44,826 bases of DNA from a virus. The notes under the pieces were generated by a model. It did not search any database, was not told the DNA's origin, and worked only from the letters and a program-made list of their open reading frames with translations. This document shows, in pieces, positions 557 to 36,806 of this stretch. Position 1 is the first letter of the stretch. Each line of letters opens with the position of its first letter. Made by a program: the position numbers and the translations under genes. Location: the IMG/VR virus record IMGVR_UViG_3300020207_000050, positions 1-44,826 of that record, one strand, 5' to 3'.

Positions 557-564
557 TATTTATC
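557..564 (-). promoter_or_regulatory. T4-type late promoter box GATAAATA
   Basis: The minus strand reads GATAAATA, 19 nt upstream of the ATG at 537, with AAGGA between box and start. It matches the TATAAATA late promoter recognised by gp55-type phage sigma factors except at the first base. Confidence 0.7.
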
Positions 565-1282: not shown

Positions 1283-1290
1283 TATTTATC
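1283..1290 (-). promoter_or_regulatory. Late promoter box GATAAATA (leftward)
   Basis: The minus strand reads GATAAATAC, 23 nt before the ATG at 1259, with AGGA in the leader. It forms one half of a palindrome with the rightward box at 1297-1304. Confidence 0.7.
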
Positions 1291-1296: not shown

Positions 1297-1304
1297 GATA
1301 AATA
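1297..1304 (+). promoter_or_regulatory. Late promoter box GATAAATA (rightward)
   Basis: The plus strand reads GATAAATAC, 19 nt before the ATG at 1324, with AAGGAG in the leader. Only 6 bases separate the two 9-base arms of this divergent pair. Confidence 0.7.
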
Positions 1305-18532: not shown

Positions 18533-18540
18533 TATTTATC
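18533..18540 (-). promoter_or_regulatory. Late promoter box GATAAATA overlapping an upstream stop codon
   Basis: The minus strand reads GATAAATA, 19 nt before the ATG at 18513, with AGGA in the leader. The TAA stop of the 50-aa ORF (18536-18538) lies inside the box. Confidence 0.68.
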
Positions 18541-18688
18541 GCCTAATTTTTTTAAGTGCTTCATCGGCTTTTCCTTTAGGATCTCCAATGACCTTTACTT
18601 GTAATCTAGGACCACGATTGGCGATCACTGTTAATCGTCTTCCATTTTCATTAGTAAAACTTTTTCCTTGTGGGCGTTTCTTTTCCAT
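18536..18688 (-). CDS. Small basic protein of unknown function, 50 aa
   Basis: The ATG at 18688 overlaps the TAA stop of the giant gene as TAATG, so translation would be coupled. The 50-residue product is strongly basic: it begins MEKKRPQGKSF, contains GRRLTVIANRGPRLQVKV, and ends in a lysine/arginine-rich helix-like ADEALKKIRR. It fills the whole gap between two huge structural genes, and its stop lies inside the next late promoter. The tight packing supports a real gene. The family is not recognised; a small virion or chaperone protein would be a guess. Confidence 0.6.
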   Translation of the reverse strand: MEKKRPQGKSFTNENGRRLTVIANRGPRLQVKVIGDPKGKADEALKKIRR

Positions 18689-24600: not shown

Positions 24601-27600
24601 ACCATTGCCAGCGACATCTGCACCACCTGTCAAGTTTGTATTGATGTATTGAGTTGGATGATCTGAACCTTTAAAAGCTGCATAAAGTATGTTATTGTAA
24701 GCATTGTTTATAATTACATTTTGTATAACATCAGCCGCTGATATAATACTTTGGTATCTTGGGGTTGCCTCATTTGTATAATTTAACCCATCGAAGAAAA
24801 TACTACCTTGGATATGTAATGTATTAATGCTACCACCTGCTCTTAAATCAGCAGCAATAGCGTCACATAAACTTCCTATTGTTCTTCTATATCTGTCTCT
24901 AGCCTGATCGTCCCATACAACACCTGCATATCCTGTATATCCTGGTTGTCCTTGGTTACTTTGATCTTTTGAAAAATCAAGGAATGCAATAACTTCTGCA
25001 ATTACAAATTCTTTGTTCTTTTCAATTAAAACAGCTGCATCTACATACTGTCCTGGATTTGTAATAGCAAGGTTGCCGCCATTGTCTACGTTTTTTGGTA
25101 AATTGGGGTTGTATAGATAATGTCTACCAAAATATCCATCTGTTTCTCCTGTAAGCGGATTAATATATGCTTCACCGTCTACTGGTAAGTTAGGATCTGC
25201 TACACCTGTGACACTATCACTGTCACCTGTTAAGCCGTCAAATTCTTTATCTCTATAAAAATATGTTCCAGACCATGGTGATTGAGAAACTTCATCTTTT
25301 GGACGAATAATAACTCGTCTAAATTCATCACCAACTAGTGATACGTTTGCAGGAACTCTAATTGGATAGTCTTCAAAATACTGTCCTGTTTCTATTCTAA
25401 TAGTGATTTGTCTATTGTTAACAATGTTGCCCATTTCCAGTTTTTCACCTATTGTGAATTCTACTGGTGTAAGCAATTCTAGTTCTGCTAAATCGTCAGT
25501 AGATCCTGGATTGTTAATGTTATCATCGCCTGTAAAATATCTAATAATTTTACCAATAGCCCCAGATGTCTTACCTCTAATAACTTTACCTACTCGTAGA
25601 TCTCTGTTTTGTGGATCGCCTTGGTCAACTTTACCTTGGCTTATTCCGTTAACACTGTTACTAAAAAATAGTTCGTATCTGTTACCGGTCTGCGGAGTCT
25701 CTGCAGAGAACACACCATTCAAAACAATATCTCTTTGTATTGCCATATTACCTGATATGCCAGTTACTGAAGCTGCGTCATCGCTGTCTGGCTGGTTAGA
25801 ACCAAATGTAATCAATTCTTGTGTGTAAATTGTTTGCGAAGGAGTTACAGGTGTATTTGTAATAATACTTGCTGTAATAGTCCTTGCTTGCTCTAATAAA
25901 TGTGCATAAACAGTTTTTAGTAGACCATTTTGTGACCTACCATATTCGTCATTATAAAACTCTACACCAACCCTTGTAGATAGTGCTGATGCAAGTGTAC
26001 CTGCTACGTGATCTAACAGTGCTGCATCCAATGCTATGCTCAAATCAAGTTCAAGAGCTCTATCATTTACAACTCTATCTGTCCAGTTGACTGTAGTTGT
26101 TCCAACAGTAGTTGTAGCTTTATTTTCTATTTGTTCATTTTTCCATGCTATAACTTCAGCAATAATAAAGTTTTTGTTAGCATCAACAAGTGACTTAGTG
26201 TTACCTCTACTATCAAGACCTGCACCTGTTGCATAGCCTCGTTGTGTAACTTGTGAAAGTTCTACAACAGCGGGATCGCCTTCGTTTATTACTCGTGATG
26301 TAAATATGTCCTGCATATAAGGACCAGGTTCAAATGGTGAAGCAATTTGTATCTGCTCTGCCTTACGTGCTGCTGCGCCTATTGTTCTATACGCATATGC
26401 TAGTGAACTACCTTCCTTACCTGGAGGAGCAACATTTTGTGCATCATTACCTACAACACTAACAAATATATTTGCACTTGATTCTGTTGATTGGCTATCT
26501 ACATATAACTTTGATACAGCCTGTAAGTCTGCAATACCATTTGGAGTTCCTGCTCCTGCTAAATCACCTGGATGGTCATGGAGTGTAAGCGGACCCTCCA
26601 TAGTATCGCCTTGTCTTCTTACAATGCTATCACGTGGCATTACCTGATGGCTTAAGAAAAATCCTTCTAGGTCTTCGTTGAAGCCGCCGTCTGTAATACT
26701 CAAACCTGCCGAATCAGTTGTTGTTAATTTGTATCTTCTTCTATTTCTTTCTACAGAGTCATTTAGTAGTGCATCTTCTGGATTAGCAAAAAATCCAATA
26801 TTATTTTCGTCCAAAATACCAAGATATACTACATCGCCATTTTCTAAAGGACCATAAATTAGTTGATTGTTGTCGTCCAAGTCTGTGCTAGAAACTAGGG
26901 TGTCAGTTGCTGGATCAATTCTACTCCAATTTAATCCTGTACCTGAAGTATTAAAAATGTATGCTGCACCATCAGAACCTCTTGTCAATCCGTGTTGTGG
27001 TATAAGTGCTGTCCCAACACCAACCGCAGATGATAAACTTACTGTAAAGACTTTTGTATAACTTGATCCGTCAGCAGGCTCTGCTGGTACGTTAATTGTT
27101 TCTCCTGGATCTTGTCTACGGATGTAGTTTTTGTCAGCAAACTTCTTGTCAATAACTATATCATCGATAGAAAAAGATGTACCATGAGTATTGTTAAATC
27201 CAGTTACGTCATCTAGTTCAGTTCCTACATTTGCTATAGCAACGCCGGCGGCATTTAATGGACCACCTAATACTGGTTTAGCATCTGATTGTAATGTTAT
27301 ACTATTTAATTTTAGAATAATTTTGCCGTTAGTAGCAACACTTACATCAATAGTGTCTACATTGGCGGGATTCTCGTCGCTGTCAGAGCCTAGTTTTCTA
27401 ATTTCAATTTCTGTGCCGTCTTGTGATACTATTGGCAAGTAAGCATCAACGCCGTCACCTTTAAATGGATTTAAACTGTCTGGTGTGTCAGCAAGCAATG
27501 TAAAGGTTATTTGTCCACCTTTACCTACTACAGCATATATCTCTTGAAAGTTTTCGTTTACCTTACGAAACGATTCTCTAATACTATCACCGGTTCCGTC

Positions 27601-27639
27601 ATTACCTTCAATGCCGATGTCTACTTCTTGTCTTGCCAT
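18688..27639 (-). CDS. Giant virion fibre protein, 2983 aa
   Basis: One uninterrupted 8.95-kb frame. The N-terminus (GNDGTGDSIRESFRKVNENF) matches the 229-aa protein. Around residue 390 is a segment of the kind seen in virion proteins (ANIFVSVVGNDAQ, then AYRTIGAAARKAEQ). Two copies of an N-K-x-F-[IV]-I-A-E-V module occur near 487 and 875; the second leads into RRTIGSLCDAIAADLRAGG, matching the insert repeats of the 1579-aa protein. PIRVPANVSLVGDEFRRVII near 755 resembles the first rung of a beta-helix. Repeated fibre-type segments follow. The last ~130 residues (YADLAEMYSADAEYEVGTVV) resemble C-terminal chaperone/peptidase G2-type fibre tips; that assignment is tentative. It is probably a long tail fibre. 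Confidence 0.88.
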   Translation of the reverse strand: MARQEVDIGIEGNDGTGDSIRESFRKVNENFQEIYAVVGKGGQITFTLLADTPDSLNPFKGDGVDAYLPIVSQDGTEIEIRKLGSDSDENPANVDTIDVSVATNGKIILKLNSITLQSDAKPVLGGPLNAAGVAIANVGTELDDVTGFNNTHGTSFSIDDIVIDKKFADKNYIRRQDPGETINVPAEPADGSSYTKVFTVSLSSAVGVGTALIPQHGLTRGSDGAAYIFNTSGTGLNWSRIDPATDTLVSSTDLDDNNQLIYGPLENGDVVYLGILDENNIGFFANPEDALLNDSVERNRRRYKLTTTDSAGLSITDGGFNEDLEGFFLSHQVMPRDSIVRRQGDTMEGPLTLHDHPGDLAGAGTPNGIADLQAVSKLYVDSQSTESSANIFVSVVGNDAQNVAPPGKEGSSLAYAYRTIGAAARKAEQIQIASPFEPGPYMQDIFTSRVINEGDPAVVELSQVTQRGYATGAGLDSRGNTKSLVDANKNFIIAEVIAWKNEQIENKATTTVGTTTVNWTDRVVNDRALELDLSIALDAALLDHVAGTLASALSTRVGVEFYNDEYGRSQNGLLKTVYAHLLEQARTITASIITNTPVTPSQTIYTQELITFGSNQPDSDDAASVTGISGNMAIQRDIVLNGVFSAETPQTGNRYELFFSNSVNGISQGKVDQGDPQNRDLRVGKVIRGKTSGAIGKIIRYFTGDDNINNPGSTDDLAELELLTPVEFTIGEKLEMGNIVNNRQITIRIETGQYFEDYPIRVPANVSLVGDEFRRVIIRPKDEVSQSPWSGTYFYRDKEFDGLTGDSDSVTGVADPNLPVDGEAYINPLTGETDGYFGRHYLYNPNLPKNVDNGGNLAITNPGQYVDAAVLIEKNKEFVIAEVIAFLDFSKDQSNQGQPGYTGYAGVVWDDQARDRYRRTIGSLCDAIAADLRAGGSINTLHIQGSIFFDGLNYTNEATPRYQSIISAADVIQNVIINNAYNNILYAAFKGSDHPTQYINTNLTGGADVAGNGNLVYDIVELIKWGNDESPNNDWNPAKRSTALDAFLMNDATILRNMTVQGHGGFMCVLDPEGQILTKSPYIQTGSSFSQSLNRQAFRGGMLVDAFCANTPVKVTSVEANGFELLVTADPGSGLSIRKPQTPCPFYINGIRYQVNDVTDYNDGGALLAPTARLILDSTSGPVSDANPDINIGWDEVELPIPGGGYAITLQTAGNRSQLGNDFTQVNDLGYGLVTINGGLSEMVSMFTYYCHTAYYAGNGGQIRSLNGSNANGVYGLVSQGSDPNEVPDNVVLKNDMVQSAKTFSAVTVLELTANLSVTAGDAIANAGSTPSASGESVFATVGKKLYLDTTSGSFTPGDSIFVNGVDSGVDIALNGVDTTGYTNVATQLSMHVYDLEHIPTNKGEIDYYHDDDPVSPLNRIGRYELANIQTMNGILVDGYTLDNTEYVFNPVARTTNVNGVVGNDESDPVTETTEAVIVISKSQQTVNGQSGIYKVNIFGTERGDHYKIGDTFTISGTQLGGVSPTHDATVTVTEINRSTVNIDNGIQTGSIRRMSISGAINIIPNFTPQRDGQVYKLNFSTSNDQFDNDGLFQDIPVNQPVDIRQNQTHLFRDIESVGSLTIRPSTAVNFDDDPLDTYRSISFGVNDSAGGLLLDDESLTGFDATYDFVQLLINDSYKNLAGSTLSVPSSSTTLGGTQGDTTIAIERLSELKDIFKLNNNFDTDAQFQTIPADDTGRDYTITYELPKVISWRGKKHIVYNYREVKVESGNHNIKTTFSEENTYAVVDLKEIEEVKLTLNDYGSWERDVFYNLAQRSVLVRQVGNTSASGKVKVAQFNENVLDLYDWSGVNFNTTGALEISIDNGATYTTMTDLATNSVNLVPTLVEIRDTNVTGVASGISQPLSQGFNSVIALRAGLQDGAPAKITIQISTCRATGHDFLDIGTGSFNQTNYPNVILGFPAREAVQDNEIQERNKGRVFFVSTDQDGFFRVGRFFTVDQGTGTVTFAASIALSDVDGIGFKRGVVVTEFSTDNAMSDNANDTVPVESAVRGYVNRRLGYDQQGNAVTNPLGPSVLQQNGSVPLTGNLQANSNTITGIAPVDLTLTAGTTAVNKDYVDSRAEGVKKFKDLRDTSIGGGQAGDILGLTGHYSIWLDANSINNKSEFVAGRVLTNSGGTTNYGTISGYDDEVYDNGLGDVYIVYFDAGPDIATLSEFNLGFNGTTIAGLKSGAPAIYSKPDGGVVGGNAKYINGPFQDIINISEEPFVNATPVSDISLSTRRLDNDDAVPSTPSNPTAYYNMQINPGVILNADVNDSAGIVQSKLDMQESDTFVTTADDQITIPATEVVVGFNYEIILQGTTDFTTLGASASTAGTTFTATVSNPNITGGGTVKRLQSNIVVKDLADDTDANNQATLGLSSFDGANFKVTRGHVQLKDNGIPKTKIEQIATQTVLGNSTANTANVAEVTFETVVNDGKGIQHGDFSTTAIDAEAGQEVMLRTDSTADAELYAVTTTTTTGEASKIVSTDTGGNIDAQGYKLNNYTIITQSGSGSDGVLTVKSIQTGVGITVAGGSATDPAYTTVYGDLNVGNLTDPDGADADSDPDVFDRSALHVSADTAFDTANSITGTESRFVASKWMYTNFIESVDEKGATSAGIALGSYSGKVDVGNVGIIATNGTVQKTVASFGMLDSDSDGTVDTLAIWPEDDNTVDIGNANYRYKTIYVKAVNVDGDITSSGGTFGNIQVGVTADGEIDTSDGDLTLDSTGGTVIVDDNLTVEGTSTLKGDVDIGNAIASDTLTVSAKVDSNFIPSGTSRNLGDSTDYWANVFTRSLTTGANTTTGTITGDWSLTSGSKLQSTYADLAEMYSADAEYEVGTVVVFGGEAEITLTNTKGDTRVAGVVSENPAFVMNQECPGIATCIALQGRVPCKVIGTVKKGDMLVTSAIPGYAIVNNTPGVGSVIGKAVTTKDTDDKGIVEVVVGRV

Positions 27640-27640
27640 T

Positions 27641-28015
27641 TTATTTTAGCTCCAAAATTTGTATATTGTCTTCTATGTTATCATTAAAATTAACGCTTAC
27701 GCCGCATCCGCAACTACTTTGAGCGTTAGGATTATTAATAACAAATTGGGTCTGGAATACATCTTTAGAATAATCTACTTCACTTCCAAATAGATACATT
27801 AAACTAGTTGCATCTACTACTAGATTTCCATTATTTGTAGGTATTATTTCGTCATTTACACCTACGTCTTCCTTATTGACCATGCTCCACTCGTATTCAA
27901 ATCCTGCACAACCGCCTCCTTTCAGTCCTAAATGCACGGCAAAGTGTTTTGGCTCTACATTGCATAGTTCATCTATTTTTTCTTTGGCTGATTTAGTAAG
28001 ATTTAATACAAACAT
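27641..28015 (-). CDS. A-type iron-sulfur cluster carrier (IscA/HesB-like), 124 aa
   Basis: The start is placed at the ATG at 28015 (MFVLNLTKSAKEKI), with AGGAG 5 nt upstream and a late box at 28032-28039; a longer in-frame ORF would run through the promoter. The three cluster-ligand cysteines of the family are present: Cys36 in GGGCAGFEYEW, and Cys102 and Cys104 in SSCGCGVSVNF, near the E. coli IscA positions. A-type carriers pass Fe-S clusters to apo-proteins in the cytoplasm. The gene sits one base upstream of the giant fibre gene in the same late operon, so it acts late or helps a virion protein. Family assignment is firm; the partner is unknown. Confidence 0.93.
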   Translation of the reverse strand: MFVLNLTKSAKEKIDELCNVEPKHFAVHLGLKGGGCAGFEYEWSMVNKEDVGVNDEIIPTNNGNLVVDATSLMYLFGSEVDYSKDVFQTQFVINNPNAQSSCGCGVSVNFNDNIEDNIQILELK

Positions 28016-28031: not shown

Positions 28032-28039
28032 TATTTATC
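28032..28039 (-). promoter_or_regulatory. Late promoter box GATAAATA for the iscA-like gene and giant fibre gene
   Basis: The minus strand reads CGATAAATAT, 16 nt before the ATG at 28015, with AGGAG in the leader. It is divergent from the rightward box at 28063-28070. Confidence 0.7.
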
Positions 28040-28062
28040 GATAAGTTTTATAATCCTAATGT

Positions 28063-28070
28063 AATAAATA
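28063..28070 (+). promoter_or_regulatory. Late promoter box AATAAATA exactly 5 nt from an ATG
   Basis: The plus strand has AATAAATA, then TAATT, then the ATG at 28076. There is no Shine-Dalgarno sequence. In T4 the late start site lies a few bases after the box, so the transcript would begin at or next to the ATG. Confidence 0.6.
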
Positions 28071-28075
28071 TAATT

Positions 28076-28363
28076 ATGTTCATAAAAGAATTTGTTGTAC
28101 AAACAAGACATGTGAGAACGTCAAAATTAGGTCGTACGCACCCTTACACACGCAAAAAGACCTACGTGTTACTAAGATGTGATAACTGTGATAACGAGTT
28201 TGAAAGACCTAGAGGCAAGATGGATGCCAAGCGGTTAAGCAACAATTATTTTCATGTGTGTAATGATTGTGATAGCAAAAAATTTGCACAAAAAAAGGGA
28301 GTAGAACAAAAACAGAAATGGAAATTTTCTGCTAGTTCTGATCTCCCTATTAGTAAACTTTAG
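28076..28363 (+). CDS. Putative zinc-ribbon protein, 95 aa
   Basis: The protein has two CxxC pairs, C35-DN-C38 and C62-ND-C65, spaced as in a small zinc ribbon. They are flanked by basic stretches (TRHVRTSKLGRTH, FERPRGKMDAKR, KKFAQKKG). This suggests nucleic-acid binding, for instance as a transcription or nuclease accessory factor, but no catalytic residues are visible. The gene has no ribosome site; its ATG is 5 nt after a late box, so it may be leaderless. It is transcribed away from the iscA-like gene and its last 4 bases overlap the end of the convergent 83-aa gene. Confidence 0.75.
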   Translation: MFIKEFVVQTRHVRTSKLGRTHPYTRKKTYVLLRCDNCDNEFERPRGKMDAKRLSNNYFHVCNDCDSKKFAQKKGVEQKQKWKFSASSDLPISKL

Positions 28364-28611
28364 TCTACGTAACTTGCATTAACATAGCAACAACTAGGAC
28401 CGTCTTCGTGATCTAATCCTTCTTTTGCATGTTCAAATACAGTTTGGCACCAGTCATCTCTATCATAAGTGCTTACAACATCAACTATTGAGATAGTTTG
28501 TCCTGTTTCTACTTTAGTAATAGTAACATTATACAGTTCTTTAGTAACACCTTCAGATACTTCTCTTGTATTTTCAGATGTTTCAACAGTCAATATATAC
28601 TCTCTAGACAT
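28360..28611 (-). CDS. Hypothetical protein, 83 aa
   Basis: A small acidic protein (MSREYILTVETSENTREVSEG) with a predicted beta-rich first half and a C-terminal CCYVNASYVD. The start at 28611 is 3 nt after the stop of the 54-aa membrane protein, so it is the last gene of a three-gene leftward operon driven from 28955-28962. The family is not recognised. Confidence 0.7.
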   Translation of the reverse strand: MSREYILTVETSENTREVSEGVTKELYNVTITKVETGQTISIVDVVSTYDRDDWCQTVFEHAKEGLDHEDGPSCCYVNASYVD

Positions 28612-28614
28612 TTA

Positions 28615-28779
28615 TTAATCTTCTTTTTTGTAGATAGTCCATGCACCGTATGCAATAGCACCGTATGCAACTAAACTAGCAATTGGTTTGAAGATAAGAA
28701 ATGCTACACCTGCACCAATAAGTACAGCGCCATCAAGCGAAGTTCTTTCGCCTAGTCTGTCTATAATCCATTTTTTCAT
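28615..28779 (-). CDS. Small membrane protein, 54 aa
   Basis: The ATG at 28779 overlaps the TAA of the 51-aa gene (TAATG). After a charged N-terminus (MKKWIIDRLGERTSLDG) come two short hydrophobic stretches, AVLIGAGVAFLIF and SLVAYGAIAYGAW. It ends YKKED. It is probably an inner-membrane protein with one or two passes. A holin-like role is possible by size, but nothing specific supports it. Confidence 0.65.
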   Translation of the reverse strand: MKKWIIDRLGERTSLDGAVLIGAGVAFLIFKPIASLVAYGAIAYGAWTIYKKED

Positions 28780-28934
28780 TAGAACTTATATCCTCCTGGT
28801 CTAGTATTTTCAGTTGTTTTCATCGACCTTTTTTCTTCAGGTAGTTTTTGCTCGGGCTTTAGTTTAATAGGTTGAAAAGGTTTCTTATCTATTCTAAGTC
28901 CGTCAATCTTTTTTAGTTTTAAACTTTCTACCAT
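28779..28934 (-). CDS. Hypothetical basic protein, 51 aa
   Basis: The start is placed at the ATG at 28934 (MVESLKLKKIDGL), which has a good AGGAG site; the longer frame would cross the promoter. The product is lysine- and proline-rich (KKPFQPIKLKPEQKLPEEKR) and ends RPGGYKF. It is probably largely unstructured. It is first in the leftward operon with the membrane protein and the 83-aa protein. Function unknown. Confidence 0.65.
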   Translation of the reverse strand: MVESLKLKKIDGLRIDKKPFQPIKLKPEQKLPEEKRSMKTTENTRPGGYKF

Positions 28935-28954
28935 AATTAGTCTCCTATATAGAG

Positions 28955-28962
28955 TATTTATG
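28955..28962 (-). promoter_or_regulatory. Late promoter box CATAAATA
   Basis: The minus strand reads ACATAAATACTC, 20 nt before the ATG at 28934, with AGGAG in the leader. A weaker rightward candidate, TGTAAATA at 28961-28968, overlaps it and may serve the 80-aa gene. Confidence 0.6.
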
Positions 28963-29000
28963 TAAATATACAAGCAAATATTTTATTATGGAGAATAATT

Positions 29001-29243
29001 ATGTTTAATTGGTTACGCAATCTTTTTTCATCTGCACAGCCAGAGCCAGTAGCAAAGCCTGCTCCTGCGCCTGCACCAAAGAAAGCAGAAGCTAAAAAGA
29101 CTACTGTCAAAAAAGCAGACTTAGCAAAAATGACTAAAGAAAAACTTGAAGCATTTGCAAAAGAAAATTATAAAGTCGATATTGATAGAAGAAAGAAAAA
29201 AGCAGACCTAGTTGACGAAGTATTTAAACTTTCTAAGAAGTAA
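29001..29243 (+). CDS. SAP/Rho-N-like small protein, 80 aa
   Basis: The ATG at 29001 has GGAG 8 nt upstream. The N-terminus MFNWLRNLFSS is amphipathic, followed by a Pro/Ala/Lys linker (residues about 14-36). The C-terminal half, KMTKEKLEAFAKENYKVDID then KADLVDEVFKLSKK, has the helix-turn-helix pattern of SAP or Rho-N-terminal folds, which bind nucleic acid. A membrane- or capsid-tethered DNA-binding role is conceivable. Its end overlaps the convergent 97-aa gene by 11 bases. Confidence 0.72.
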   Translation: MFNWLRNLFSSAQPEPVAKPAPAPAPKKAEAKKTTVKKADLAKMTKEKLEAFAKENYKVDIDRRKKKADLVDEVFKLSKK

Positions 29244-29526
29244 TATTTCTAACACTTAGTCTTTCGATAGCAGACTCACAGCGAGCCAGCTTACGCTCTA
29301 ATACAGTGATAGCGGCTCGCTGTTTTCTTGACTGTTCTTCCAAACTACGAACATACTGTAAAGTAGGAAGTTCTTGAGTTGAGCCATCTTCTCCCAGCAA
29401 CACCATAGTATCTACACCTTGGGCTTTTAACCCGCCCGTTACACGATTAGGATTTTTTGTAGATTCGCTAGATGATGATTGGGTCTGGGCCGGATTTCTT
29501 CCGTACATTTTGTTTAAATAGCTCAT
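29233..29526 (-). CDS. Hypothetical coiled-coil protein, 97 aa
   Basis: The start at 29526 has GGAG and a late box at 29544-29551. The first 40 residues are polar and low in complexity (AQTQSSSSESTKNPN). Residues about 55-95 form a likely coiled coil (LQYVRSLEEQSRKQ, ITVLERKLARCESAIERL). It is probably a small virion or assembly protein given late expression. The family is not recognised. Confidence 0.72.
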   Translation of the reverse strand: MSYLNKMYGRNPAQTQSSSSESTKNPNRVTGGLKAQGVDTMVLLGEDGSTQELPTLQYVRSLEEQSRKQRAAITVLERKLARCESAIERLSVRNITS

Positions 29527-29543
29527 TGTTTATCTCCGTACTG

Positions 29544-29551
29544 TATTTACT
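29544..29551 (-). promoter_or_regulatory. Late promoter box AGTAAATA
   Basis: A variant box on the minus strand, 17 nt before the ATG at 29526, with GGAG in the leader. The TAA stop of the 2OG oxygenase gene (29547-29549) lies within it. Confidence 0.5.
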
Positions 29552-30260
29552 CTGCTTGCTCATAGAATTGTGAACGTCTTGGATCATGCTCATATGTTGC
29601 ATTTGAAGTATAGTAGAATAGTATTAAACTATCTCTAGTTATTGTTTTTGGACATTCTATAGGTTCGGGATGCCCATGAACTAAATCATAACCATAGTCC
29701 CAAAAAATTAATCTATTAGGCTTTGGTGCAATTTTTTTAACACATTCTGTTCTTTCATTGTTCCAAAATTCTAAATGTCCATTCCACTCTTCTTTCCAAT
29801 CTTTGTTAAGATAGAGTATGGCATTCTTTTGTCTATTTAATTTAAGACCGTTATTCCAATTAAAGTCTGTATGTAATCCTAATGATGTATTTCTGCTACT
29901 TCTACAAAACCCACCGCCTAAGAAGTGAGGATCTGGAACAAGAGATTCTGTACCAGTACAAACTTCTAACCAATCTACAAACAATTTACTGTTAAAACTA
30001 TTTGCAAGGGTTTGTAGTAAAGGCGCCTCAGCAAAGTTTCTACATTCTCTTCGTTCGCTATACTGATTAGCAAAAATTTTATAGCGTTCTTCCGGGATAT
30101 CTTCAAATGAATTTATAATAGTATTGTACAACCATGGTGGCAAAAAGTTGTCTATCATATAAAATGGAGTAGGCTCACCTTTTGCATATTCTGCAAAAAT
30201 TGTTTCTGGATTGTAAGTTGTACTTAGATCTTGGAAAAAATTATATATTTGTTCATGCAT
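29547..30260 (-). CDS. 2OG-Fe(II) oxygenase-like protein, 237 aa
   Basis: The protein fits the prolyl-hydroxylase-type double-stranded beta-helix dioxygenases, which use Fe(II), O2 and 2-oxoglutarate. The HxD iron ligands are in GLHTDFNWN (near residues 129-131). The distal part DLVHGHPEPIECPKT then ITRDSLILFYY supplies the third histidine and the oxoglutarate-binding arginine. The substrate cannot be read from the sequence. The ATG at 30260 lies 5 nt after a late box and has no ribosome site. It lies 8 nt after the UV endonuclease gene. Confidence 0.85.
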   Translation of the reverse strand: MHEQIYNFFQDLSTTYNPETIFAEYAKGEPTPFYMIDNFLPPWLYNTIINSFEDIPEERYKIFANQYSERRECRNFAEAPLLQTLANSFNSKLFVDWLEVCTGTESLVPDPHFLGGGFCRSSRNTSLGLHTDFNWNNGLKLNRQKNAILYLNKDWKEEWNGHLEFWNNERTECVKKIAPKPNRLIFWDYGYDLVHGHPEPIECPKTITRDSLILFYYTSNATYEHDPRRSQFYEQAE

Positions 30261-30265
30261 AAAAC

Positions 30266-30273
30266 TATTTATG
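30266..30273 (-). promoter_or_regulatory. Late promoter box CATAAATA exactly 5 nt from an ATG
   Basis: On the minus strand CATAAATA is followed by GTTTT and the ATG at 30260. The TAA stop of the UV endonuclease gene (30269-30271) lies inside the box. No Shine-Dalgarno sequence. Confidence 0.6.
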
Positions 30274-31378
30274 CATATATTTTTCCTGCGAAGTCTTTTG
30301 CCATTGAGTTATAATCTTCTGTTGCTAGACCATATTTGTATAGGTCAATACTAGCAAGATTCTTAGACTTAGACTCGACCATAATGTCTGCGTAATCTAA
30401 AAATTCTAATGCCCAGTCGTTAACAGCATTATTCCACATAAAGTCAGAATGTGCTCTAAGTTTTTGCTTCTTAAAGCCTTGCTCTAATAGCGAATCCATA
30501 TTAGGTAAAGAGTTATCATCATGGTCTACTAGTAGATCTTCGCGTGAAACTGAGTAATGAATAACAGGTCTTACTCCACGCCAACTGTCAACTATACGTA
30601 AAAATCTATCGTCGGTGGGCGATATGTATTCTCCACTAGCAACCCAGTGGTGGTGTATGTCCAATACGAGAGCGACATGCTTTTCAAGTTCGAGGCTTGC
30701 GTCAATGCCCCAAGACATTTCGTCGTTTTCGATTGTGATTGCGTTTCGCGCTTCTGGCGAGAGTCTCGGTAAGACGTCGATGATGCCTTGTGGACCTTTT
30801 CGACCCGATATGTGTACGTTGCATTTAAAGTCTTGGAAGGTGCGGCCGTATCCCATCCAGCGCAAGACATCGGTGTGATATTCAAATTCTTCTATGCTCC
30901 TCTCAACAATTTCCGGATTATCCGAGGCAAGTACAGTAAATTGTCCCGGATGCATTGATAGTCGGACGTCAAGGGCTCTTGCGGTTTCTCCAACTTTTGC
31001 GAATTCTTTTTCACAGTATGCAACCACATCCGGCTTGCGCCAAAAATAACACCAAGTAGGCTCGGTATAAACAGGAAGTACATCACTACCCAATCTGACC
31101 ATTCTAAGTTGAGGGGGAAGACTTCCAACATATTCAATCAACCTTCTGTATGACGCTATGTTGTGGACCATAATGTCCCACAAGCGTTCTTCAGCAACAT
31201 CACGTGTTTGCCTATTGAGCCACGCAACTGTTGTGCTACGAGTATTTAGTGGTCGCTGTATCTCCTCAAGCAATTTCTTCTTCTGTGTTTGATCAGGATA
31301 CATGTATTTGCATGCAAAACCTATGCGTTTTTGTTGTGCTTTCAAAAAGTCACCTGCTGTTGTAAATTTTAAATCCAT
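30269..31378 (-). CDS. uvsE: UV damage endonuclease (UvdE/UvsE family), 369 aa
   Basis: The start is the ATG at 31378, which overlaps the stop of the PMM-like gene as TAATG. The protein has the TIM-barrel signatures of UVDE: RIGFACKYMYP near the N-terminus, RLGSDVLPVY, RLSMHPGQFTVL near residue 140, SIEEFEYHTDVLRWMG, NDEMSW, and a late YSVSRED...HSDFMWNN region. These enzymes nick DNA 5' to cyclobutane dimers and other lesions in an alternative excision-repair pathway, useful to a phage in sunlit water. Base composition stands out: 117 of 240 bases at 30661-30900 are G or C (49%), against the mid-30s around it. Recent transfer is likely. Confidence 0.93.
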   Translation of the reverse strand: MDLKFTTAGDFLKAQQKRIGFACKYMYPDQTQKKKLLEEIQRPLNTRSTTVAWLNRQTRDVAEERLWDIMVHNIASYRRLIEYVGSLPPQLRMVRLGSDVLPVYTEPTWCYFWRKPDVVAYCEKEFAKVGETARALDVRLSMHPGQFTVLASDNPEIVERSIEEFEYHTDVLRWMGYGRTFQDFKCNVHISGRKGPQGIIDVLPRLSPEARNAITIENDEMSWGIDASLELEKHVALVLDIHHHWVASGEYISPTDDRFLRIVDSWRGVRPVIHYSVSREDLLVDHDDNSLPNMDSLLEQGFKKQKLRAHSDFMWNNAVNDWALEFLDYADIMVESKSKNLASIDLYKYGLATEDYNSMAKDFAGKIYA

Positions 31379-32097
31379 TATATTTCTTCTAGTAATTGCC
31401 ACGTTTCTTTATAATCTTTAACATTATAACACATACCTAAGTCACTGTCAATGATCTGTTTTTTAAGAGGATAATCATTTCCTGCTTTATCCATCCTATC
31501 ACCAAAAAAGTGTAATTCATCATTTATATCAAAGTCGTGTAGTATTTGACTTTTATCACTACCCTTGAGTCCAATATCAATACCTGTTTCTCCTCCAGGT
31601 CTTGCTTCTAACTCTGGAAAGAGCAAATTAAACTTTCCAGCTATTTTATTTCTTTCGTTATGTTCGAGATCATATTTTACATACAATTTGCGTTCGCCCA
31701 GTGTAGCATTGCGCCCAACTACGCTGTAATTTGTCATTCCGTGTCTATGTTCAAAATGTAGCCCAGTTCTTAACGGAAAAGCACTACTAGTGAGCTCAAT
31801 CGACAACCATTCGTGTGCATCTTCTGGTAATGTCCATTCGGAGTGTTTAATATTAACTTTGCCTTCCCAAACATCATTACCGTTACATTGATAAACACGT
31901 TTGCACAAGTTATAAGTTGGTTCTGTAATCTGTTCTATAGTTTTAGGTTTATCACTACCTGTTACAAGATATACGTCATTGACCATAGAGAACGCATTAA
32001 AGAATGCTCTAAAGTCATAGTCCATTCTACCTCTGCTAGGAGTCAATGTTCCGTCTACATCAAATATATATTTTATCGCCAATTTTCTACTACCCAT
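31378..32097 (-). CDS. Phosphomannomutase-like HAD phosphatase, 239 aa
   Basis: The start chosen is the ATG at 32097 (MGSRKLAIKYIFDVDG), overlapping the glycosyltransferase gene by 25 nt; a longer frame would add an atypical basic leader. The HAD catalytic motif is FDVDGTLTPSR (near residues 12-22), with VTGSDKPKTIEQ, the cap motif FEHRHGMTNYSVVGRNAT, and the C-terminal GLKGSDKSQIL and FFGDRMDKAGND. This set and order match eukaryotic-type phosphomannomutases (PMM2), which interconvert mannose-6-phosphate and mannose-1-phosphate; related HAD members are plain phosphatases. Near PMM length (about 245 aa). It could feed GDP-mannose or act as a sugar phosphatase. Confidence 0.85.
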   Translation of the reverse strand: MGSRKLAIKYIFDVDGTLTPSRGRMDYDFRAFFNAFSMVNDVYLVTGSDKPKTIEQITEPTYNLCKRVYQCNGNDVWEGKVNIKHSEWTLPEDAHEWLSIELTSSAFPLRTGLHFEHRHGMTNYSVVGRNATLGERKLYVKYDLEHNERNKIAGKFNLLFPELEARPGGETGIDIGLKGSDKSQILHDFDINDELHFFGDRMDKAGNDYPLKKQIIDSDLGMCYNVKDYKETWQLLEEI

Positions 32098-32882
32098 GGA
32101 TCTTTGCAATGTTCTGGATTTGGATCTCCGTGGAAAACACACACGCAACATTCTATTCGAGGTACACAGTTTTCCACTACCTTAAATGTTCTTTTTCCTC
32201 TGACGCCGCCTGGTTCAAAATCTCTACTTTGTCTTACTTCCCATTTCCAACTTTGTGTCCAACTATCTGGATATAACATTGCGGCTTTTTCTTTATGTGT
32301 TACATCATACAAGTAGTCTTGATCACCAAAGAACAGTTTTTGATATTTTTCTGGATCTTGTTTATACTTGTCCCAAACAAACCCCAGTTCTCCTGTTTTA
32401 AACTTTATAACCGAACTGTTATACTTTTGATAACTAGGACGCATAGCTCGAGTGTAGTCTTTTACAATGCACCAATGATTAGGTTGCCAAGTTAATAACT
32501 TATCTATATTACCGCTTATAACAACATCTAAATCTAAGTACAGTATAGTTCCTTTAATGGGAAGATCTTTAGAAAACATATAAGGCTTGCACCACCACCC
32601 ATGTAAGCCTTTTGGTAAGTTGAGTATTTGTATGTTAGGATCTAACCCCATTGGATCGTCTGTAAGACATGCAAACTTATAGTCTAACGTACAATTACGT
32701 TTTACCATATTATACAATTTGTTTACATAATCTGCAGAATATTTTGTGCCATGTTTAAGACATAACACAAAATAATCCTGCGGAAGTGTAGAAATAAGTT
32801 TACTAGCCTTTGCTTCTCTGCGTTCGGCCTTAATCTTTAACCATTCTTCCTTAGTGTATTGACTCTTATCAATCTTTGCCAT
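32073..32882 (-). CDS. Glycosyltransferase-like protein (GT8-type DxD), 269 aa
   Basis: The ATG at 32882 (MAKIDKSQYTKEEW) is chosen; it overlaps the end of the queD-like gene by 14 nt. After a charged N-terminal helix comes DYFVLCLKHGTKYSADYVNK, typical of nucleotide-sugar-binding GT-A folds. Then LYLDLDVVISGNIDKL carries the DxD metal/UDP-sugar motif near residue 115. GDQDYLYD and CVCVFHGDPNPEHC match the distal acceptor and metal-binding parts of GT8/GT24-like enzymes. The acceptor is unknown: host surface glycan, virion protein or DNA are options. The neighbouring sugar-phosphate enzyme supports a sugar pathway. Confidence 0.78.
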   Translation of the reverse strand: MAKIDKSQYTKEEWLKIKAERREAKASKLISTLPQDYFVLCLKHGTKYSADYVNKLYNMVKRNCTLDYKFACLTDDPMGLDPNIQILNLPKGLHGWWCKPYMFSKDLPIKGTILYLDLDVVISGNIDKLLTWQPNHWCIVKDYTRAMRPSYQKYNSSVIKFKTGELGFVWDKYKQDPEKYQKLFFGDQDYLYDVTHKEKAAMLYPDSWTQSWKWEVRQSRDFEPGGVRGKRTFKVVENCVPRIECCVCVFHGDPNPEHCKDPWVVENWR

Positions 32883-33354
32883 CAGCAAACGACATCTTTT
32901 GTGTTTGATATGGAGTATAAATTGCTGAGTTAGCACCGTGCTCTGCACACTCTGCACTCTCACACCAGCAACGTCCGTCACTCATTTCACGCACAAGATT
33001 ATCCGCAAACTTCCACGCATGATATGCAAACTTTTCTGCACCTACACCGTCAAAAATTCTTAGCTCTGCTAGTCCTTTTTCTTCTAGTGCTTTAAGCGTT
33101 TCAAGTTCAGGGTCGTCTGCATCTACAGCAACTTTATGATCAAAACTATCTTCTAGCCAAGCCTTCAAAGGTTTTAGTCCTCCAAAGTCTACAGCCCAGT
33201 TTTTTTCATCTAGATCACTACAGCCAAATACAAATTTAAAAGCAAGACTGTAGCCATGCAATAAATGACAATGTGAATGTAATGCTTTTGGTTGACGGAA
33301 CACCGCTGAAAGACCGATGTTGTGTCCGTATGTTTTAGTACTATAAAATGCCAT
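32869..33354 (-). CDS. 6-pyruvoyl-tetrahydropterin synthase/QueD-like protein, 161 aa
   Basis: The ATG at 33354 (MAFYSTKTYGHNIG) has AGGAG 7 nt upstream and a perfect sigma70 promoter at 33423-33451. The fold signatures are LHSHCHLLHGYSLAF (near residues 25-38), WAVDFGGLKPLKAWLE, the catalytic-type FDHKV, and CAEHGANSAIY near the C-terminus. Family members convert 7,8-dihydroneopterin triphosphate to pterins or, as QueD, to 6-carboxytetrahydropterin for 7-deazaguanine synthesis. The canonical AAH and HGH zinc ligands appear as AVF and HGY, so this is a divergent subfamily. No queC, queE or folE is seen in the window, so the product is uncertain. Confidence 0.85.
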   Translation of the reverse strand: MAFYSTKTYGHNIGLSAVFRQPKALHSHCHLLHGYSLAFKFVFGCSDLDEKNWAVDFGGLKPLKAWLEDSFDHKVAVDADDPELETLKALEEKGLAELRIFDGVGAEKFAYHAWKFADNLVREMSDGRCWCESAECAEHGANSAIYTPYQTQKMSFADGKD

Positions 33355-33416
33355 ATGTTTTCTCCTATAATATGGCGGCAGAATTAGAAGGGTTGACGCC
33401 AAGTCCTATATTAATA

Positions 33417-34010
33417 TTAACTATTATACGATATGTTACTTATCGTGTCAACCATTACGTTAGGATAAATCCAGGATTCTTTTAGTTTTATATGTTTATT
33501 ATAGACTATAAATTTAGTTTTAGGAAAACATTGGAATACTTTTCCTATTTGGTGTATCCAATATCTAGGATCAACGGCTCTCTTATCTGCTCTATCATAG
33601 TTTCGTGTATCTTTGTATATGTTATTAACTGTGCTAGTGTCACTGTACATATCAAAGCCTATTAAATGAACTGTTTCTTTTTTGCTCTTTAGAGCTCCTA
33701 AAAGAACAGCATAAGGACCACTACCCCATTGAAATGGTTCGTCCCATCTCTCATTTCCTTCATAAGGTAAATTAGGAAGTAATCTTATGTTTTTGTGTTG
33801 TTTGAATCTAGGATACCAATCGCTTCTTGTGTAAATTTTTGTTTCCTCATTTATACCAGCGTTGATAGATTCTTCAACCATTCGTTTGTCAACACAGATA
33901 AGATGATCCATTTTATAATCACGCATAATGGCATTGCACCCTATTTTAGTTCCAAACAGAGAGTCAATATCAAGCCGAGAACGGCTTTCACCGTTACCAA
34001 ATACATACAT
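33417..34010 (-). CDS. DUF115/MAF-like protein, possible glycan-related, 197 aa
   Basis: The protein opens with MYVFGNGESRSRLDIDSL, resembling the nucleotide-binding G-N-G-x-S loop of DUF115 and sialyltransferase-like proteins. It continues with IGCNAIMRDYKMDHLICVDK and VHLIGFDMYSD, which resemble the second half of that fold. Such proteins are found near surface-sugar genes, and here the GT8-like and PMM-like genes are close. The ATG at 34010 is exactly 5 nt after a late box and lacks a ribosome site. The 3' end holds the early promoter of the queD-like gene. Confidence 0.7.
   Translation of the reverse strand: MYVFGNGESRSRLDIDSLFGTKIGCNAIMRDYKMDHLICVDKRMVEESINAGINEETKIYTRSDWYPRFKQHKNIRLLPNLPYEGNERWDEPFQWGSGPYAVLLGALKSKKETVHLIGFDMYSDTSTVNNIYKDTRNYDRADKRAVDPRYWIHQIGKVFQCFPKTKFIVYNKHIKLKESWIYPNVMVDTISNISYNS
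33423..33451 (-). promoter_or_regulatory. Consensus sigma70 promoter for the queD-like gene
   Basis: The minus strand has TTGACA (33446-33451), a 17-nt spacer and TATAAT (33423-33428), both hexamers perfect. It lies inside the 3' end of the DUF115-like gene. Transcription would start near 33416, about 60 nt before the ATG at 33354. Confidence 0.85.
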
Positions 34011-34014
34011 ACAA

Positions 34015-34326
34015 TTATTTATTGTTGTTTATATCTTCTTTTAAGACAGTAATGTCTTGCTTAACTTCTTTAAATTTTTCAGCCGCTTGAGACATTAATT
34101 CAACAACAGAGGAAATTTTATCTATTGCCCACCACCACCAAATTGCGGCGACGAACATAAAAGTACAAGTGCCTGTTAAAATAAGCCAATAATATGTTTC
34201 ATGAGCTCCTAGCCAATACGAAATCGCTAGAGCTATAAAGCCTGTCATGGGAAGTACACTGCCTATTATTTTCCAAATAAGTGCCTGTTTTTTAGTTTGT
34301 TTTTTTAATAAGTCAAAGTTAGTCAT
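34015..34326 (-). CDS. Two-pass membrane protein with coiled-coil tail, 103 aa
   Basis: After a basic N-terminus (LLKKQTKKQALIWK) there are two hydrophobic segments, near residues 19-40 (IIGSVLPMTGFIALAISYWL) and 46-67 (YWLILTGTCTFMFVAAIWWW). They are followed by an amphipathic, charged helix (SSVVELMSQAAEKFKEVKQD). The layout is a membrane anchor with a cytoplasmic coiled coil. It resembles phage spanin or holin accessory shapes only loosely. The ATG is 5 nt after a perfect TATAAATA box with no ribosome site. Function unknown. Confidence 0.75.
   Translation of the reverse strand: MTNFDLLKKQTKKQALIWKIIGSVLPMTGFIALAISYWLGAHETYYWLILTGTCTFMFVAAIWWWWAIDKISSVVELMSQAAEKFKEVKQDITVLKEDINNNK
34016..34023 (-). 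promoter_or_regulatory. Late promoter box AATAAATA exactly 5 nt from an ATG
   Basis: On the minus strand AATAAATA is followed by ATTGT and the ATG at 34010. The TAA stop of the upstream 103-aa gene (34015-34017) overlaps its end. No Shine-Dalgarno sequence. Confidence 0.58.
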
Positions 34327-34331
34327 ACTAA

Positions 34332-34339
34332 TATTTATA
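34332..34339 (-). promoter_or_regulatory. Perfect late promoter box TATAAATA exactly 5 nt from an ATG
   Basis: On the minus strand TATAAATA is followed by TTAGT and the ATG at 34326. This is the only exact match to the T4 late consensus that I noted in the window. Confidence 0.72.
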
Positions 34340-34368
34340 GGGTACTCTTACTTTATTTTGTTGGTAGT

Positions 34369-35502
34369 TTATGAGCTGATTTGACCGAAAGGCTTCCATT
34401 CTCCTGGAGTGCCTTCCAAAATGCATACCCAACCTATATAGCCTGTTGGCTTTGGGTCATCATTCCAAACTATATCGCCTTTACGATATTGTCCACTAGT
34501 GGGTGAACCGGAACCTACTTGCATTTTTTTGTTTTCAAATTTTATCGGGCCTGCAACAGCAAGATCGCTGTCGTCTGAAATTGTGTTTACACCAACACCT
34601 AATTTACCATGTACTGTAACCCTTGCTGAGTCACTGTTCTTGTTACCTAGGTGTATTTTACCATTAGCACTTACACTAATTCTAGTTGTATTGTCAGTTA
34701 TAATTTCTAGGTCATGTGTTGTATATGTTCCTAATTTGATCTCTGGTTGATCTATATCAATAACAAACTCAGAATCAAAGCCCATTATACCAACAGCACC
34801 ATTAGGTGCTTCAGTACCAATACCTAGCCTATCAGCATCGCTGTTCCAAAATAGATGTTGACCAAAAGAAACATTGCCTCTAACATTTAACTTATGAAGT
34901 GTACCTACTTCTCTAAGGCTACTTGTTTTAATATCAGGGCCTAGTGAATCTTTGCTTAGAACATAGTTGCCGTTTACAAAGTATGCAGCATCTGCATGTA
35001 AATCTATTGGATCACTACTCCAAAGTCTATCTGGATTAGGTCTGTACACAAACTGTTTTGTAGGTTGTCCTTTTTGCACCCACAATAATCCTTTATTATA
35101 GATGTTACCATCTGCATCATTGAATTCAAGTGGTCCAGATCTTTCATTTCTAACGTCTGCTGTAACTTCGTCAACATGAAGTTTTTTTGCATAAACTTCG
35201 CCGTCTACATGTAAATTACCAGAAACATTTGTGTCGCCTACTAGTGTTTCTACGTCTATTGTATCAGTTAGTATTCCATCGTCATTTACAAACACTACAA
35301 GTCTAGTTGACTCGTCTTTAATACCGGTGCTTTTAAACTTAGATATTGTACCTCCTTGAATTAAGTCTCCACTTAGGCTGTTATTTGCTAGTTTTGACAT
35401 GTCAGGAGTGTTGTCTATGCTTGCTAAAGCATCAACAACTTCTGCTAAAATAGGTAGTCCTTCTACAGCAATACGGACTTTATTAGGATCTGGCTTCTTC
35501 AT
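34369..35502 (-). CDS. Tail-fibre-like structural protein, 377 aa
   Basis: A beta-rich, glycine/aspartate-rich protein with fibre-type repeats such as GNLHVDGEVYAKKLHVDE, VRGNVSFGQHLFWNSD and GKLGVGVNTISDDSDLAV. It ends with GDIVWNDDPKP then GYIGWVCILEGTPGEWKPFG, a C-terminal tip common in phage fibre and appendage proteins. It stands outside the main structural block but has its own late box 5 nt before the ATG, without a ribosome site. It is probably a short accessory or adhesin fibre. Confidence 0.8.
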   Translation of the reverse strand: MKKPDPNKVRIAVEGLPILAEVVDALASIDNTPDMSKLANNSLSGDLIQGGTISKFKSTGIKDESTRLVVFVNDDGILTDTIDVETLVGDTNVSGNLHVDGEVYAKKLHVDEVTADVRNERSGPLEFNDADGNIYNKGLLWVQKGQPTKQFVYRPNPDRLWSSDPIDLHADAAYFVNGNYVLSKDSLGPDIKTSSLREVGTLHKLNVRGNVSFGQHLFWNSDADRLGIGTEAPNGAVGIMGFDSEFVIDIDQPEIKLGTYTTHDLEIITDNTTRISVSANGKIHLGNKNSDSARVTVHGKLGVGVNTISDDSDLAVAGPIKFENKKMQVGSGSPTSGQYRKGDIVWNDDPKPTGYIGWVCILEGTPGEWKPFGQISS

Positions 35503-35507
35503 GTAAG

Positions 35508-35515
35508 TATTTATC
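35508..35515 (-). promoter_or_regulatory. Late promoter box GATAAATA exactly 5 nt from an ATG
   Basis: On the minus strand GATAAATA is followed by CTTAC and the ATG at 35502. The TGA stop of the 430-aa gene (35514-35516) overlaps the box. No Shine-Dalgarno sequence. Confidence 0.65.
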
Positions 35516-36806
35516 AGTTTACTTTAAGAAGCACTGTATCCGGATTACAACGTCCGTTTAGTTTTGTATCAGTAGTTTTTATCTCCTCTAGAAACTTGCG
35601 TAATGCTACTTTACCTGCATTTTTAAACTCTTTTAGTTGTTCTTCTGGCTTACGTAGCGTCTTTTGAATACTTTCTTTTTCGTCAAACCCTATTATTGTT
35701 GTGCCTTTAACACTAAGTCCAGTACCGTCTCTAGCAAGACCTTTTGGATCTATATTTGATGCAACATATTTGCCTAGTTTACGTGTCTTACTGTTAAACA
35801 CCCACAGCTCACTAGCACCTACAATAAGTGTAGGATCAATACTTGCAAGTGAATACTTGTCATCTGCTTTGTTAAACTTCAACTTCTCTACAATTTTACT
35901 TGCAGATCGTTGCTTAGGCTTACGTGGTTTACGTGTTGCCTTAGCTTGCTCAATAATAAAGTCTAGCTCTGCATTCACGGTTTCGATTGCTTTGCGATAT
36001 TTTGCAATATCAGATTTTTTGTGATCTGCGTAACCTTCTTTTAGTTGTTCCCACATATCTCTTTCGTGTTCGTCCATTTTTGCCAACTGTCCTTTTGTTG
36101 GCATTCTTTCTAGGTCGTCAAAGTCTACTAGTTCCGACTCCCAAAAAGATTTCATTTTGCGAGCGTGAGCTTGACTTGGTTGAACTTTTTTAAAATATGC
36201 TTTAAAGTCAAACCCTTTTGGGTCAAACAACTTTGGGTCTTGTACCCAAACTTCCAACCATTCGTCAATTGGTTCAGACATATCATATGCCTGGTCTCTT
36301 ATACGTTCTTGTATTGTAGGAACGTAGACGTTTGCTTTTGCTTTTTCTTCTTTTGTTTTAACTTGAACAGCCTTTGAGCCACCTTCAATGTAAGTTTCAA
36401 TTCGTTTTTTAAGGAATTCGCTAGGACCTTTCTTAGGACCCATTGTGCCAGCAAGACTTTGCCAATGCTCATCTTCTCTCTTTACATAGTCAGGAGCACC
36501 ATCTAAAAATGATTGTGCAACAATAGCACTTGTAATACTGATGTAAGTATTAGGCATTGCCTTTGCGTGTTTTATTTGTTCTTTAGTATATTCTCCGCTT
36601 GCTTCCATCCATTTGAATATACTAGGATACAAATCAGCTGGCTTATAATTTTCATAGTAAAAAGATCTTACATATTCTCTATGACGGTGAATCTGTTCAC
36701 CCGTCCATTCTTCCCAGCCATCCCAACTAGGCGCTGTAAGTTTAGCACCGCGTTTTAGACGAGGAGCCGCTCTAGGTTTTTTTCTTTTAGTCTTCGGCAG
36801 GGCCAT
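35514..36806 (-). CDS. Basic phage protein of unknown function, 430 aa
   Basis: The ATG at 36806 has GGAG and a sigma70 promoter at 36836-36864. The N-terminus is very basic (KTKRKKPRAAPRLKRGAK), and there is a second basic patch near residue 295 (ATRKPRKPKQRSASK). A predominantly helical middle contains DEHERDMWEQLKEGYADH. A beta-type C-terminal third includes SELWVFNSKTRKLGKY and GLSVKGTTIIGFDEKES. I do not recognise a catalytic motif. Early-type expression and positive charge suggest nucleic-acid binding during takeover or replication. Confidence 0.8.
   Translation of the reverse strand: MALPKTKRKKPRAAPRLKRGAKLTAPSWDGWEEWTGEQIHRHREYVRSFYYENYKPADLYPSIFKWMEASGEYTKEQIKHAKAMPNTYISITSAIVAQSFLDGAPDYVKREDEHWQSLAGTMGPKKGPSEFLKKRIETYIEGGSKAVQVKTKEEKAKANVYVPTIQERIRDQAYDMSEPIDEWLEVWVQDPKLFDPKGFDFKAYFKKVQPSQAHARKMKSFWESELVDFDDLERMPTKGQLAKMDEHERDMWEQLKEGYADHKKSDIAKYRKAIETVNAELDFIIEQAKATRKPRKPKQRSASKIVEKLKFNKADDKYSLASIDPTLIVGASELWVFNSKTRKLGKYVASNIDPKGLARDGTGLSVKGTTIIGFDEKESIQKTLRKPEEQLKEFKNAGKVALRKFLEEIKTTDTKLNGRCNPDTVLLKVN

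Follow-up and report, generated by a model that had tools for sequence, protein, structure and literature searches.

Late promoter boxes exactly five nucleotides before the start codon point to leaderless late mRNAs in marine T4-like phages

The DNA analysed here, referred to as the window, is the whole stretch from position 1 to 44,826 of the IMG/VR virus record IMGVR_UViG_3300020207_000050 (44,826 bases, 37.1% G+C), and it carries a set of T4-type late promoter boxes placed exactly five nucleotides (nt) before an ATG. We consider it very probable that these boxes are gp55-type late promoters fused to the start codon, which would give late mRNAs without a leader, as judged from the sequences of the window and of its relatives. 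The distance d counts the bases that separate the final A of the box from the ATG. Both strands of the window together contain 12 ATAAATA words, with five at d = 5, six at d = 16–23 accompanied by a Shine-Dalgarno (SD)-like stretch, and one that is intragenic (15280, minus strand). The five close boxes listed in a preliminary description of this DNA were all located with the spacers given there, namely AATAAATA at 28063–28070 (plus strand, TAATT), CATAAATA at 30266–30273 (minus, GTTTT), AATAAATA at 34016–34023 (minus, ATTGT), TATAAATA at 34332–34339 (minus, TTAGT) and GATAAATA at 35508–35515 (minus, CTTAC), each spacer being 5 nt long and followed by ATG. The late box NATAAATA is present at all five sites, with the perfect form TATAAATA only at 34339–34332, and the ATGs open reading frames (ORFs) of 95, 237, 197, 103 and 377 amino acids (aa), respectively. 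The seven SD-class boxes at 16–23 nt claimed in the same description were also recovered, as the six ATAAATA words plus a degenerate AGTAAATA as the seventh.

Taken alone, the box means little, since boxes with one mismatch are not enriched in the window (122 found versus 134 expected); the non-random feature is the spacing between box and ATG. For the 20 other anagrams of ATAAATA, the window has 444 occurrences; an ATG opening at least 60 codons follows within 40 nt in 50 of these, never at d = 5, whereas ATAAATA in the same test has d = 5 in five of ten cases. Relatives of the window were taken from two contig scans (the best 80 loci of 191 and the best 80 of 119, with some loci and contigs shared), and repeated contexts were removed before counting. 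In these window-like loci, 64 of 376 ATAAATA boxes were at d = 5; distances of 9–12 and 14 were empty, 13 occurred three times and a second mode began at 15. Anagrams of the box stood at d = 5 in 26 of 11,902 words; a pyrimidine precedes the ATG in all 64 of the d = 5 cases. The core TAAATA occurred 137 times at d = 5 and 35 times at d = 4, against a mean at d = 5 of 5.4 for 14 anagrams. For the longer contigs (numbered G001 to G008), HTVC008M, T4, KVP40 and the cyanophages Syn9, S-PM2 and P-SSM2, boxes were counted if an ATG opening at least 45 codons followed within 40 nt. The counts of ATAAATA at d = 5 in the longer relatives G001, G002, G003, G005, G006 and G007 were 3, 6, 9, 3, 6 and 5, respectively, with G006 not being independent of the window because it contains the window's own five sites. 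When the first ATG of long ORFs in G001–G003 was taken as the start, TAAATA was at d = 4 in seven cases, at d = 5 in 18 and at 9–14 in none.

A second group of phages shows the same spacing. The SAR11 phage HTVC008M has d = 5 in 9 of 19 boxes, and all nine ATGs are annotated gene starts, belonging to a 2OG oxygenase, CsgF, a putative tape measure, the DNA end protector, the tail tube cap, a gp25-type baseplate wedge subunit, the baseplate wedge initiator, a transcriptional regulator and a hypothetical gene after the major head gene. The SAR11 phage Mosig has d = 5 in 6 of 32 boxes and eight pattern matches; seven of the eight fall in the annotated stretch and were checked, and six of these are at annotated starts, including that of the DNA end protector, while the box of the seventh belongs to a gene with an annotated start at d = 18. 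The OM43 phage Melnitz has d = 5 in 3 of 24. Two scans of HTVC-like contigs (31 loci and the best 80 of 241) gave 43 of 220 at d = 5, with 10 at d = 6, eight at d = 8, one at d = 9 and none at d = 10–14, and anagrams were at d = 5 in 8 of 7,446 words. Reference phages, namely T4 (0/31), KVP40 (0/21) and the cyanophages Syn9 (0/21), S-PM2 (1/28) and P-SSM2 (1/39), essentially lack the d = 5 class. The closest of the 31 T4 boxes is at least 12 nt from its ATG, the raw d = 5 pattern occurring twice in T4 before shorter frames, and raw pattern counts in four cyanophages (1, 3, 1 and 2) were near those of reversed-pattern controls (1, 3, 1 and 1). Thus the sharp 5-nt peak among relatives and its anticorrelation with SD strength, which the preliminary description had proposed as a test, were found in two phage groups, the anticorrelation being partly forced by the position of the box.

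In its account of late promoters, a T4 review (PMC2988020) gives the first T of the box the number −13, which puts the end of the box at −6 and +1 on the sixth base beyond that end. For boxes with d = 5, this numbering supports a +1 that would fall on the A of the ATG. A C or T directly precedes the ATG in 87 of 89 distinct d = 5 cases (window-like loci, HTVC008M and the G contigs), as compared with 124 of 241 genes of the d = 15–30 class. Bacterial RNA polymerases prefer a pyrimidine at −1 and a purine at +1, and in T4, KVP40 and the cyanophages the pyrimidine–purine step is commonest at position 6 after the box (0.40; elsewhere up to 0.29). The T4 numbering and the pyrimidine at −1 therefore both favour the earlier suggestion that these mRNAs would begin at or near the AUG.

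The distance between box and ATG is bimodal in both groups of marine T4-like phages, with a spike at 5, almost nothing at 9–14 and a broad mode bearing SD sequences. Among 147 families pooled from both groups, many of them single-member and with ties settled arbitrarily, the commonest distance was 5 in 37, 4 in 8, 9–14 in 3 and 15–30 in 81. SD sequences of at least 4 nt were found in 7 of 121 genes at d = 4–8 versus 192 of 220 at d = 15–30 in the window group, and in 7 of 88 versus 44 of 60 in the HTVC008M/Mosig group. Because the box itself takes up about −13 to −6, the missing SD at d = 5 is for the most part forced; more telling are the exact 5-nt spacing and the near-empty zone beyond it, which the box does not force. 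The near-absent spacings are those that would give leaders longer than about 4 nt yet too short for an SD, as expected if the leader is either absent or of SD length.

Relatives also switch between the two states at one and the same site. At the orthologous site after the phrog_11903 gene, represented by 49 distinct upstream proteins and scored with an ORF test on the ATG after the box, 31 have exactly d = 5, 12 have d = 22–27 and six lack a box or a following ATG; 11 of the 12 long leaders carry an SD of at least 4 nt, and an SD-like word of at least 5 nt lies upstream in 3 of the 31 short sites. On a tree of the upstream gene, at least six changes between states were counted, three of which are forced by well-supported branches. 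The gp25 gene of HTVC-like loci has d = 5, 6 or 8 (49 of 80 loci inspected, nine of them by eye), and in Mosig it has d = 8, while in Melnitz it has d = 16 with an SD; among three cyanophages, the box of P-TIM68 is 21 nt before a GTG start and no exact box occurs in the 50 bases inspected of the other two.

Conservation of the short spacing was also seen in orthologues that were not selected for a box. The 95-aa gene has 58 distinct starts, of which 56 have the TAAATA core at d = 4–5, all 56 with a pyrimidine before the ATG, and the remaining two have no TAAATA in the 45 nt upstream; for the 197-aa gene the core is at d = 4–5 in 38 of 68 distinct starts, with a pyrimidine in 36 of 38. Within the members carrying an exact box, d = 5 was found in all 10 of the 197-aa gene, all five of the 95-aa gene and 46 of 71 of the fibre-like gene, most of the remainder of the latter being at 24–27, while the membrane-protein gene is mixed.

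The arrangement would work as follows. A gp55-type late sigma factor would bind NATAAATA at −13 to −6, and RNA polymerase would initiate at the sixth base past the box, the A of the ATG, after a pyrimidine. The late mRNA would begin with AUG, so initiation would proceed without a leader or SD and the ribosome would have to recognise the 5′-terminal AUG, a form of recognition generally established for leaderless mRNAs (see PMC3160421). Other late promoters of these phages would form a second set that provides leaders of about 10–20 nt or more with an SD. The fused layout would hold promoter and start codon within 16 nt and go with tight gene packing: a codirectional stop lies within 20 nt of the start in 67 of 88 genes at d = 4–8 versus 4 of 60 of the long class in the HTVC008M/Mosig group, and in 70 of 121 versus 28 of 220 in the window group. 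With the fused class being far richer in nearby codirectional stops, compaction is the likeliest advantage of the layout, and a dedicated late translation programme is possible.

Among other readings, transcription might start 1–4 nt upstream of the AUG and give very short leaders, which we regard as unlikely. The pyrimidine–purine step of the long class is equally frequent at positions 5 and 6, and gp25 relatives at d = 6 and 8, including that of Mosig, would suit such leaders; however, the pyrimidine in 87 of the 89 d = 5 cases is at position 5, directly adjoining the A of the ATG, and the mode is exactly 5 without spread. It is also rather unlikely, in our estimate, that the phages run two late translation programmes, one led by SD sequences and one leaderless and still translatable when SD-dependent initiation is altered, so that the spacing would act as a translational switch; phage factors that change the ribosome, such as the bS21 of HTVC008M and some relatives, would perhaps take part in it.

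Translational coupling, in which ribosomes terminating nearby on a read-through mRNA would need no SD and the box would be incidental or a weak promoter, appears quite improbable. It draws on the many fused boxes that lie at an upstream stop (the 70 of 121 and 67 of 88 at d = 4–8 given above), where it could contribute, but it predicts neither a box at exactly 5 nt nor the pyrimidine at −1, and no such spike is seen for anagram words, including several with TAA. A codirectional upstream gene near the start is found at many sites and is lacking at 28076 of the window and 18916 of HTVC008M; coupling fails at divergent genes (window 28039/28076, HTVC008M 18916/18943, Mosig 60954/60990 and 93978/94129) and at gaps of about 75 nt in HTVC008M (6280 and 75559). 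That the true starts lie downstream with their own SD is very improbable: a few low-distance cases are of this kind, e.g., the d = 2 ATGs of one family, in which a later ATG with an SD before it is the conserved start, but among genes at d = 4–8, 0 of 121 and 2 of 88 contain an internal start in the first 30 codons that is preceded by an SD of at least 5 nt, the first residues are alike across the gp25 and 197-aa families, and the public annotation of HTVC008M uses these starts in all nine cases. Chance in AT-rich DNA, for which the 37% G+C of the window and the lack of excess of one-mismatch boxes might speak, is contradicted by the anagram controls on the same sequences, the pyrimidine at −1 and the absence of the class in T4, Syn9 and KVP40, and can be dismissed almost entirely.

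Several observations weigh against the fusion of late promoter and start codon. The assignment of +1 rests on the T4 numbering, and in the long class of the marine groups the pyrimidine–purine step does not peak at position 6 (0.44 at position 2, 0.40 at 5 and 0.41 at 6), so that the start may wobble, which would also suit the d = 4 class (15 distinct cases, with a pyrimidine before the ATG in 14). The gp25 relatives at d = 6 or 8 would have leaders of 1–3 nt, and the pyrimidine at −1 is weaker in the HTVC-like loci (36 of 43 at d = 5). The looser TAAATA fills the middle zone of d = 9–14 with 17 cases in window-like and eight in HTVC-like loci, and it stands at d = 5 three times in T4 and four times in P-SSM2 (anagram means 1.1 and 0.5, respectively), with a pyrimidine in one case each. 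Few orthologous starts keep the exact ATAAATA: 9 of 68 for the 197-aa gene, where 30 of the 68 have no TAAATA in the 45 nt upstream, and 3 of 58 for the 95-aa gene. The rows counted throughout are distinct contexts and not independent events, near relatives being counted separately. The gp55 gene was not found in G001, G005, G006 and G007, contigs that are possibly incomplete, of which G006 carries the window's sites. Finally, a Pelagibacteraceae genome has no comparable −10 peak at its own starts.

Three candidate causes of the fused class were rejected. An alphaproteobacterial host as such does not account for it, as phiM12 (Sinorhizobium) and Cr30 (Caulobacter) have no d = 5 cases for TAAATA boxes. 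Phage bS21 is present in HTVC008M, G001, G004 and G007 and was not found in G002, G003, G005, G006 and G008; several of these bS21-negative contigs, which may be incomplete, carry the fused class. Mimicry of the host was set aside on 0.39 Mb of the Pelagibacteraceae genome AG-918-E02, which lacks a −10 peak at the spacing expected of leaderless genes; its SD usage, from crude start calls, is low, with 17% of starts having at least 4 nt, and TATAATN6ATG occurs 44 times genome-wide versus 32 for the reversed control.

The genes behind the five close boxes of the window, all predicted to be leaderless, are as follows. The 95-aa gene (28076–28363, plus strand), labelled a zinc ribbon in the preliminary description, has weak Pfam matches to HypA and DUF7836 below cut-off and a match to phrog_5104; its box diverges from the SD-class box at 28039. 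The 2OG-Fe(II) oxygenase gene proposed earlier (29547–30260, minus) was borne out by a match to PF13640 (1.1e-14), and its box overlaps the stop of an upstream endonuclease-family gene (30269–31402). The 197-aa gene (33417–34010, minus) matches phrog_30607 and has no Pfam match at 0.01, DUF115-like being its earlier label; the box overlaps the upstream stop. The 103-aa probable membrane protein (34015–34326, minus) has a sub-cut-off match to holin superfamily III, and the upstream gene ends 42 nt before its ATG. The 377-aa fibre-like gene (34369–35502, minus), whose box overlaps the TGA of an upstream gene (35514–36806), has relatives that alternate between d = 5 and d = 22–27 with an SD-like stretch. 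In relatives of the membrane-protein gene, the box is 36–38 nt from the ATG at L016:4849, L021:3006, L023:7081, L025:4586, L129:9686 and L058:6952, and these leaders carry an apparent short inverted repeat directly before an SD-like GAGGG or AAGGG; a hairpin leader that alternates with the leaderless form is possible in this family.

The fused class had been described as one of late accessory genes, which proved too narrow, since core virion genes (gp25, tail tube, tube cap, tape measure and head-tail adaptor) belong to it too. Of 50 representative families, 20 were scanned with PHROGs and 10 with Pfam, some with both. The core genes at d = 4–5 in relatives of the window include the tail tube (G002, d = 4), a gp25-like wedge subunit (G002, d = 5) and a head-tail adaptor (G003, d = 5), with virion structural proteins also present, and among the accessory genes of the class are the 2OG oxygenase, CsgF, NifU-like, uroporphyrinogen decarboxylase, tryptophan halogenase and fatty acid desaturase genes. 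The annotation of HTVC008M contains a gp55 late sigma, a putative late-promoter factor and a polymerase clamp. Relatives of gp55 in G002 (locus L221) and G003 (locus L234) are 281 and 287 aa long, respectively, versus 185 aa in HTVC008M, and the extra length is mostly N-terminal. A PF07068 match for gp23 was absent in six of the eight G contigs searched. Arrays of 20 tRNA genes in G001 (L214:15932–18202) and 28 in G003 (L228:122–9870) were observed, together with a tmRNA in G001 (L216) flagged with an asterisk and probably permuted, and a tRNA search of the G006 pieces found none.

The SD-class boxes of the window are located at 1297–1304 (plus strand, d = 19), 1283–1290 (minus, d = 23), 557–564 (minus, d = 19), 18533–18540 (minus, d = 19), 28032–28039 (minus, d = 16) and 28955–28962 (minus, d = 20), and the degenerate AGTAAATA is at 29544–29551 (minus, d = 17, then GGAG). 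The box at 28032–28039 precedes an Fe-S biosynthesis gene (27641–28015) and is the divergent partner of that at 28063, so that positions 28032–28070 hold back-to-back late boxes on opposite strands, one SD-led and one predicted to be leaderless (95-aa gene). Among orthologues of the 95-aa gene, 57 of 58 starts have a reverse TATTTA(T) on their upstream side. The largest ORF of the window encodes 2983 aa (18688–27639, minus).

The boxes share their 8 bp with the T4 late promoters served by gp55, gp33 and gp45, which lack a conserved −35 element according to the T4 review (PMC2988020); the difference is that no T4 box of the 31 lies under 12 nt from an ATG, whereas many lie at 5 in the marine phages. 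Cyanophage (Kyanoviridae) late promoters likewise have the same box, but d = 5 is near-absent in Syn9, S-PM2 and P-SSM2. Bacterial leaderless translation is usually treated gene by gene or for certain bacterial groups. The cI gene of lambda has a leaderless mRNA that shares the 5′-terminal AUG without a leader predicted here, but it is a single regulatory gene transcribed from a sigma-70 promoter, whereas a recurrent class of late, partly structural genes is concerned here. Phage transcripts are "often leaderless" in the wording of one source (PMC5312081). Leaderless transcripts are reported to escape inhibition by kasugamycin (PMC5230787). A study of leaderless genes in certain bacterial groups (PMC3160421) recognises leaderless "TA-led" genes by a −10-type box about 10–12 bp ahead of the start codon; the phage box, at −13 to −6 with d = 5, resembles these in having a −10-type box at leaderless spacing and differs in being a phage late box before virion genes, beside SD-led late genes, and not the Pribnow box of a host sigma-70. 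Late boxes and leaderless genes are thus known already, while the portions of the literature on leaderless or late transcription in T4-like, cyano- and SAR11 phages that were searched yielded no report of leaderless late mRNAs of T4-like phages, nor of a recurring promoter-start module in these phages that joins the two.

A box, five nucleotides and ATG, with a pyrimidine before the A, would provide a rule for spotting late promoters together with true starts; in one study of pelagimyophage genomes, late-promoter prediction was reported to be unsuccessful (PMC7029224). Orthologue pairs with and without a leader constitute a natural experiment. If the reading of the boxes as late promoters fused to the start codon is true, leaderlessness would be built into T4-like late promoters and switched between relatives at one site, in phages of SAR11 and for core virion genes.

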